64,000 nt of DNA, taken from NCBI GenBank assembly GCA_036946405.1, contig JAQIJC010000001.1, forward strand, positions 1,991,001 to 2,055,000. Reading direction: 5' to 3'. Position numbers and translations under genes: made by a program. Below, in pieces: positions 56,820-57,836 of this stretch. Every line of letters begins with the position of its first letter. The stretch's first letter is position 1. The notes beneath the pieces were generated by a model that worked only from the letters and a program-made list of their open reading frames with translations, made no database searches and was not told where the DNA came from. The DNA comes from Sphingomonas phyllosphaerae. GTDB taxonomy: Bacteria; Pseudomonadota; Alphaproteobacteria; Sphingomonadales; Sphingomonadaceae.

Positions 56820-56969
56820 GTGTGAGGAAAGCGCGTTTGATCCGGCCTACGCCAGATATGAGAAGAGGTTGCCGAACGCCCGCAAACGGACACCCGACAA
56901 CCCCTTGACATGGTCAGCGGCCGGAGAGCTCCAGCCCGGGAGACCATGTTGCCTCCAAAAACCGCCGGT

Positions 56970-57009
56970 CCCGCTACGTTGAAGGGAGGAAGCGTCCTCC
57001 CGCAGCGGG
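56970..57009 (-). terminator. Nested hairpin downstream of an 18-codon ORF
   Basis: Inner arms GGGAGGA (56984-56990) and TCCTCCC (56995-57001) around AGCG; outer arms CCCGCT (56970-56975) and AGCGGG (57004-57009). On the minus strand the structure starts 10 bases after the TAA of the short ORF and is followed by GGCGGTTTTTGG. It probably ends a short transcript; its CCTCCC could also pair with GGAGG ribosome sites. Confidence 0.6.
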
Positions 57010-57019
57010 GCAGCGATCC

Positions 57020-57076
57020 TTAGAAGCGCATCTCCCGAACGAACTGAACCGACCCCATTGCTGAACCATGAGACAT
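57020..57076 (-). CDS. 18-residue peptide ORF with a near-ideal Shine-Dalgarno
   Basis: ATG to TAA encodes MSHGSAMGSVQFVREMRF. The bases just before the ATG are AAAGGAGGTGATCC (57091-57078 on the minus strand), which match 14 bases of the complement of the 16S rRNA 3' end, with a 7-base gap from GGAGG to ATG. A hairpin follows 10 bases after the stop. This is either a tiny protein, a leader peptide or part of a small RNA. No longer frame explains it. I know no family for the peptide. Confidence 0.5.
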   Translation of the reverse strand: MSHGSAMGSVQFVREMRF

Positions 57077-57226
57077 CGGATCACCTCCTTTCGCTGGTTG
57101 ATAACAGTTGCGACCGCGTAAGCCGCACCTGCAATGTGAGACGAATGCGGATGCGATACAAGGCTTGTAATGCGTCCCGTTCTGGACGAACATTTCAGAC
57201 TTCGCGCCCCCGTCCGCAACGTCGGA

Positions 57227-57763
57227 TCAGCCGCGGCAATCCTCGATCACCCGCCCCACTTCCGCCCAGGGCGGCAGCACCAGCGGTGGGGTGCCGGATT
57301 GTTCGACGGTGAAGCGCCCGCGCGTGAACGCCATCGCATCCAGCAGCCGGTCGTCGCTGGCGAAGCGCGCCAACACCTGCGGCACGGCGGCGGCGACGAC
57401 CTGCGTCGGGACGCTGCGCGTCGCCGCGCTGGTGCGGATCGTGAAAGGTCCGGGATTGCTGCCCGGGCGCGACAGCAACACCGCTCGCGCCGCGCGGTCG
57501 CAGCGTAGTTCGGCCGCGGGAGTCTGGCCGGCCCCGCCGTAACTGGCGCGCGTGCCCGCGGCATCGCGGACATAGCGCCACGCGCCCGGCGTCCACGGCC
57601 AATCCTGCCAATTGGCGACCGGGGTGGGCGCGGGGAGTGGTTCGGGCGCGGGACTCGGGGCGGGTACTGGTACGATGGGCGCGGGCGGCACGGCGCGCGG
57701 AACGCAGCCGGCGCTCGCCAGTACGACCATCGCGAGCGGCAGCGAAGAGAGATGACGGGTCAC
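57227..57763 (-). CDS. Putative lipoprotein, unknown function
   Basis: A 178-residue protein. From GTG 57763 it begins MTRHLSSLPLAMVVLASAGC, a lipoprotein signal with C20, then a Pro/Ala/Val-rich linker (APIVPVPAPSPAPEPLPAPTP) as in envelope-spanning lipoproteins, and a ~120-residue domain with NWQDWPWTPGAWRYVRD, ARAVLLSRPGSN and LARFASDDRLLDAMAF. A longer frame to 57829 would hide the signal. I do not recognise the domain. It is divergent from the PRC-barrel gene and 150 bases upstream of the 18-codon ORF. Confidence 0.78.
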   Translation of the reverse strand: MTRHLSSLPLAMVVLASAGCVPRAVPPAPIVPVPAPSPAPEPLPAPTPVANWQDWPWTPGAWRYVRDAAGTRASYGGAGQTPAAELRCDRAARAVLLSRPGSNPGPFTIRTSAATRSVPTQVVAAAVPQVLARFASDDRLLDAMAFTRGRFTVEQSGTPPLVLPPWAEVGRVIEDCRG

Positions 57764-57810
57764 CCGCGACGCTATGACCGATCGCTGCCGCGTGCTCAAC
57801 CGCCATGCCC

Positions 57811-57836
57811 GGAACCGCCGCACCGGCACGACGGTT
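57811..57836 (+). promoter_or_regulatory. Candidate EcfG promoter for the PRC-barrel gene
   Basis: GGAAC (57811-57815), 17 bases, then GGTT (57833-57836), one base from the GGAAC-N16/17-CGTT consensus. Start would be near 57843, 30 bases before ATG 57874, and AGGAGA lies in the leader. PRC-barrel proteins are regular members of alphaproteobacterial stress regulons. Confidence 0.5.

Follow-up and report, generated by a model that had tools for sequence, protein, structure and literature searches.

What is a complement of the entire 16S rRNA tail doing in front of a reading frame of only 18 codons? The question arises in a 64,000-nucleotide stretch of Sphingomonas phyllosphaerae DNA (the window), in which a preliminary description had placed a 14-nt match to the complement of the tail one base before the ATG of an 18-codon, TAA-ended ORF. 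This arrangement was confirmed on the minus strand (Table 1), with the TAA ending at 57020. The reading that we favour, tentatively and with a probability of roughly 0.4, is that of a stand-alone structured small mRNA that would capture 30S subunits via the entire 16S tail and be gated by alternative folds. The site, the ORF, their conservation, the spread of relatives in the class and the changing downstream neighbours are read directly from the DNA sequences, and the structure is read in part from covariation.

The 16S-tail complement and its reading frame

An oligonucleotide table (PMC6943124) prints the alphaproteobacterial 16S 3′ tail in its S. meliloti form, and the 14-mer AAAGGAGGTGATCC is the reverse complement of this sequence. 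The duplex of this Shine–Dalgarno sequence (SD) with the tail was predicted at −29.9 kcal/mol, compared with −9.8 kcal/mol for an ordinary GGAGG site invented as a yardstick, in line with the earlier claim that the SD is extreme. An exact-match search returned a single copy of the 14-mer in the window and a single copy in the 3.8-Mb assembly. A 16S family search detected no 16S gene in the assembly, so the rRNA copies are masked, missing or undetected. In 19 of 24 chosen genomes the 14-mer occurred exactly once, and all 19 sites were this element or a match to the model of the Rfam family CC2171 (see below); it was absent from the other five, three of which are of the same order. A relative of the 14-mer with three mismatches, GAAGGCGGGGATCC, lies at three places in the window (37357, 53265 and 53321) and looks repeat-like.

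DNA similarity was searched with positions 56950–57240 as the query in 61 genomes, comprising 37 from the genus (the window's own genome included) and 24 from elsewhere in the order. Similarity was found in 34 genomes, all from the window's genus (34 of its 37, own genome included), and in none of the 24 genomes outside the genus. Matches limited to the core (approximately 57026–57101) showed 89–98% identity; longer matches were lower in identity because the flanks diverge. All bases from three before the SD through codon 6 are identical in the 34 genus copies, SD and start included. The preliminary description had looked to relatives for conservation of the SD–ATG spacing or of the peptide; the spacing and the reading frame are both kept in these 34 genomes, and each copy retains a start and a stop. 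Conservation of site and ORF across the genus copies far exceeds what chance would give.

The stop codon is exchanged among the genus copies (TAA in 20, TGA in nine and TAG in five), and the alignment columns past it are unconserved. A stop that is kept despite codon exchange, with conservation ending there, looks like comparative evidence for translation of the ORF. The fourfold sites of codons 2, 4, 5, 6, 9, 10 and 13 are invariant in the 34 copies, while the amino acid varies at codons 7, 8, 11, 15, 17 and 18 and more rarely at codons 14 and 16. Synonymous changes are not in excess of amino-acid changes in the ORF (counts of alignment columns over the 34 copies, not dN/dS), so that the synonymous-site excess envisaged earlier gave way to frozen fourfold sites. 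Because these sites are frozen while amino acids change, the ORF looks translated and yet constrained as RNA, with selection apparently holding its bases more than its peptide; for the same reason a role of the peptide alone, the tiny functional protein of the preliminary description, is unlikely.

Table 1. Features of the element, in minus-strand order (window positions).
Feature	Positions	Strand	Evidence
Palindrome ACAAGCCTTGT, overlapping the −35-like TTGTAT (57161–57156)	57158–57168	−	Genus conservation
−10-like CACATT, 17 nt past TTGTAT (spacing counted on the sequence)	57133–57138	−	CAcATt conserved in the upstream alignment
SD AAAGGAGGTGATCC, complement of the full single-stranded 16S tail; followed by G (57077) and ATG (57076–57074)	57078–57091	−	Genus alignment, printed tail, duplex energy
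18-codon ORF MSHGSAMGSVQFVREMRF plus stop	57020–57076	−	Start and stop codons retained throughout the genus alignment (34 of 34)
Internal hairpin	56970–57011	−	Covarying helices 5 and 6
Invariant-rich 3′ block CATGGTC...GACCATG; can pair with ORF codons or with itself	56909–56948	−	Alignment, folds
Terminator-like hairpin with tail CCTCTTCTCAT	56863–56905	−	Helix 7: ten of 16 pairs with two-sided changes

Layout and alternative folds

The full element is longer than SD and ORF, spanning approximately 57126–56858 on the minus strand (about 265 nt, with both ends estimated). Its order is a palindromic promoter region, SD and ORF, an internal hairpin, a 3′ block of about 40 nt that is partly single-stranded, and a terminator-like hairpin. 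The preliminary description had pictured a terminator just past the ORF stop and a transcript of almost nothing but site and peptide. A terminator immediately after the ORF was rejected, since alignment and covariation identify the hairpin there as a conserved internal one; the terminator-like hairpin lies more than 100 nt further on (approximately 56905–56863), and the three parts that follow the ORF belong to the element as well.

The palindrome, as ACAAGNCTTG, was found in 33 of the 34 genus copies, starting 74–78 nt upstream of the SD. The plus strand of the window has one copy of the form ACAAGNCTTGT, whose palindromic symmetry puts it at the same place on the minus strand; this palindrome in the promoter region is probably a regulator's operator. 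A palindrome that retains at least the core CAAGNCTTG was present in 17 of the 19 named loci from Sphingomonadales, among which a species may be represented more than once, and in none of the 61 from other clades. TTGTAT and CACATT would form the promoter of an RNA that starts near 57126, and the 3′ end would fall near 56858, after the tail CCTCTTCTCAT. A generic consensus scan listed no promoter or terminator at the element, which was counted against 30S capture; we therefore infer both, like the transcript from about 57126 to 56858, from conservation. Many Rhodobacterales copies carry another recurrent promoter-like stretch upstream, TTGACA..CACAAAATCTGTG, noted by eye.

Two competing folds use the same bases. 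In the first, a rod, the ORF pairs with the 3′ block in a long helix, and neither the SD nor the start codon is part of it. When the rod is taken together with two other hairpins, pairing holds in 93.2% of cells (87.0% in shuffles), two-sided changes occur in 144 cells (61.1 in shuffles, with 0 of 500 shuffles reaching 144) and slid versions of the structure are 39–52% paired; these controls are not probabilities, as the aligned sequences are related and the structure was derived from one of them. Covariation was seen in the last-codon helix, the internal hairpin and the terminator-like hairpin. The 16 rod pairs nearest the start codon show no two-sided change anywhere (15 never vary and one is broken in nine sequences), and these start-proximal helices are beyond the reach of covariation because they hardly vary in the genus. 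The pairing CATGGT-CAGC/GCTG-ACCATG is possible in all 34 genus copies and is invariant there. In the second fold, the SD lies in a hairpin with codons 8–14 and the 3′ block closes on itself. The window RNA alone prefers the SD hairpin (fold z of −6.8). Folding of the alignment consensus favours the SD hairpin too and a separate RNAalifold run the rod; of nine sequences folded singly, four were read as rod and five as SD hairpin. This disagreement between folds, like the near-invariance of the start-proximal helices, weighs against 30S capture. Participation of the same bases in two competing pairings would explain why they cannot change.

Relatives in the Alphaproteobacteria

CC2171 was reportedly first described as an sRNA from Caulobacter. 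It is named in a table row of a Mesorhizobium paper (PMC5596092) and appears in a structure-update row of the Rfam 15 paper (PMC11701678). As the sole fitting Rfam family, CC2171 (RF01867) matched the element with 27.3 bits (E of 0.00037), below the gathering cut-off of 75; the element is a distant relative of this family. The two have in common a 5′ motif through the start region (CAAC..CGAAAGGAGGUGAUCC..UGUCUCAU, from the model alignment), a 3′ end that could pair with the start region and a terminator-like hairpin. The window element differs in its peptide, in an additional internal hairpin and in its pairing letters (CAUUGUC/GACAAUG in CC2171 against CATGGT-CAGC/GCTG-ACCATG, a change between families). 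No description of the element's sequences or peptides was found in the open literature searched, a search that lay apart from the original Caulobacter report. A separate CC2171-type copy is present in the same genome (L044, C1:1425807–1425959, minus strand, 70 bits); its SD is weakened to GAAGGAGGTGGTCG in front of the frame MSHCHTPASAKGERMIASEGRVLA, which was counted against 30S capture. Close downstream of another CC2171-type element lies a small SRP RNA (L079:1306–1402).

The CC2171 model matched 61 of 289 genomes of the class, nine of them above the cut-off. A strict SD-N-RTG motif was found once each in 59 of 385 class genomes, with zero hits for the reversed control; its lack in the other 326 was also weighed against capture. 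In a phylum-wide draw, a motif one base shorter was found in 59 of 111 genomes inside the class and in one of 238 outside it (a split counted by hand). Among plasmids, BLAST returned a single match, 29 nt long, to an Azospirillum record.

Clades were compared on 80 named loci from at least 117 stretches, alphaproteobacterial by title except for three titled only 'Proteobacteria bacterium'. Frames beginning MSHG.. were found in Sphingomonadales, MSR..LERGVGT.. in Rhodobacterales, MSSDF.. in Mesorhizobium and allies, and MSHCH.. or MSD..TWT.. in Bosea, Methylobacterium, Ancylobacter and others, while the Bradyrhizobium frame has 14 residues ending CHLAGIAR. Nearly all frames are 14–26 residues long (exceptions, 31 and 59). 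Pairing of the start region with the 3′ region was compared between cognate and non-cognate partners, giving −18.6 versus −15.3 for sphingomonad loci, −18.5 versus −15.2 for CC2171-type loci and −21.2 versus −17.6 for 'other' loci. In Rhodobacterales, MSS-type and Bradyrhizobium loci the cognate pairing was only slightly better than the non-cognate, a further point against capture; with three groups hardly separated, the test was dropped as a general proof of start/3′ pairing.

In some clades the ORF contains a stretch that resembles the 16S tail, an example being the Bradyrhizobium sequence TGTCACCTC. How well the SD pairs with its own ORF was scored against dinucleotide shuffles, with mean z values of −2.4 for Bradyrhizobium, −1.7 for the CC2171 type, −1.6 for both the MSS type and 'other' and −1.5 for the long sphingomonad type. 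The signal is weak in Rhodobacterales (−0.8), where the 3′ region gives −1.7, and absent from the short sphingomonad type (0.0), both of which count against capture. Shuffling the SD instead of the ORF gave z of −0.9 to −2.6. These predicted pairings are suggestive, rather than proof, of an ORF that acts as an internal mimic of the 16S tail.

Neighbouring genes and possible functions of the RNA

Among the alternatives to 30S capture, a trans-acting, base-pairing sRNA, as CC2171 is filed in Rfam, was considered rather unlikely; the ORF with its perfect SD would then protect or time the RNA through translation, giving it a dual function. Kinship to CC2171 and an invariant 3′ block with single-stranded parts argue for it, but it leaves unexplained why the whole 16S-tail complement is kept where a short SD would suffice. 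A precedent is the dual-function attenuator sRNA rnTrpL/peTrpL of S. meliloti, which has a leader peptide (PMC10117765). Like the element, rnTrpL is a small alphaproteobacterial RNA, and its translated ORF is close in size to the presumably translated one here; it begins with AUG, without an SD, and belongs to trpE (PMC10117765), whereas the window element has an extreme SD and, within the genus, lacks a constant downstream gene.

An ordinary small mRNA with the 18-residue peptide as its functional product seems improbable. Start and stop are conserved through the exchange of stop codons, and peptide types recur within clades, but the invariant fourfold sites stand beside six codons that change amino acid, and from clade to clade the peptides have hardly more than MS in common.

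We give similarly little credence to a ribosome-sensing, cis-acting leader or attenuator of the downstream gene as the explanation of the element. In the genus the downstream gene differs from one species to the next and in many cases lies on the other strand (rough ORF calls), which makes the leader peptide of the preliminary description unlikely here as a leader for one downstream gene. In the window this gene encodes a TonB receptor, and a cis leader of that gene was rejected because the neighbour is not conserved in the genus. The upstream gene (57227–57829) gave no family match in the window and is homologous in 18 of 30 loci (rough ORF calls); uvrB lies beyond it. In Rhodobacterales a cis leader is plausible: arfB (ribosome rescue) is the next same-strand gene in 11 of 16 loci (L120, L123, L125, L127, L129, L142, L151, L154, L179, L188 and L193, with arfB cut off after its first codons in L188), starting 178–315 nt past the SD with a terminator-like hairpin between. 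Against this, other sequence intervenes before a more distant arfB in three further Rhodobacterales loci, and arfB was not found nearby in two of the 16. Two Rhodobacterales arfB representatives scored above the NCBIfam ArfB cut-off, and the window genome has a candidate arfB (a short RF-1-domain match) elsewhere (C1:1775126–1775497). Other neighbours were noted in passing: a YaiI/YqxD (DUF188) gene downstream of five CC2171-type loci (L153 cluster; one representative named), and a TlyA-type rRNA methyltransferase gene upstream, on the opposite strand, of nine short-type sphingomonad loci (L149 cluster; one representative named).

Chance or a 16S fragment, with the plus strand merely bearing the tail sequence GGATCACCTCCTTT, was rejected as having next to no probability, since Rfam gives at the site no rRNA match that would extend the 16S similarity beyond the tail, 34 of 37 genus genomes keep the element and the minus strand carries a start, a stop and a terminator-like hairpin.

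For the capture of 30S subunits by a small mRNA, we infer transcription, translation, capture itself, switching and a sensor or buffer role along the following lines. The 5′ part would present the complete 16S-tail complement, at the proper spacing, to free 30S subunits, with a grip expected to be far tighter than that of a normal SD. The short ORF would be translated and its bases would double as RNA structure, pairing imperfectly with the SD in a closed state and with the 3′ block in the rod state, where SD and start codon lie outside the helix. The 16S tail would compete with this internal pairing, so that the RNA would be a switch gated by free 30S subunits. A captured subunit would stay parked, or leave only gradually by way of the mini-ORF, and in this manner the RNA would sense or buffer free small subunits. 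In favour of this reading we weigh the genus conservation with its frozen fourfold sites, the single occurrence of the 14-mer in 19 of 24 genomes, the duplex energy, the shuffle comparison for the rod and hairpins, the fold z of the window RNA, the SD–ORF pairing in several clades, the changing downstream gene in the genus, the once-per-genome SD-N-RTG motif and the position of arfB in Rhodobacterales. Ribosome titration, raised in the preliminary description, is still a live reading.

Two known kinds of RNA invite comparison. The 6S RNA holds a central machine, RNA polymerase, by imitating its binding site; the proposed partner here is the 30S subunit in place of the polymerase, a likeness in the proposed mode with no claim of homology. 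The anti-SD (CCUCC-motif) sRNAs of Alphaproteobacteria carry an anti-SD and bind mRNAs. Both they and the element involve SD/anti-SD pairing, but the element carries the SD and is expected to bind 16S rRNA.

The relatives in many Alphaproteobacteria suggest a way to hold or sense free ribosomes. A wider proposal, which at present we regard as doubtful, is that of an alphaproteobacterial RNA system for sensing and buffering free 30S subunits, in which a single locus presents the complete complement of the 16S tail, the ORF mimics the tail and so closes the site, ribosome binding flips the RNA and, in Rhodobacterales, the element is wired in cis to arfB. If true, this would be a counterpart for the ribosome of what 6S RNA is for RNA polymerase. 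Should the reading hold, there would be a widespread RNA with one shared trait, a match to the complement of the single-stranded 16S tail over its full length. Such an RNA would offer a natural test of what very long SD helices do and a possible means of controlling free small subunits in a loop, with a link to ribosome rescue through arfB, and would supply a candidate mechanism for an Rfam entry filed merely as an sRNA.
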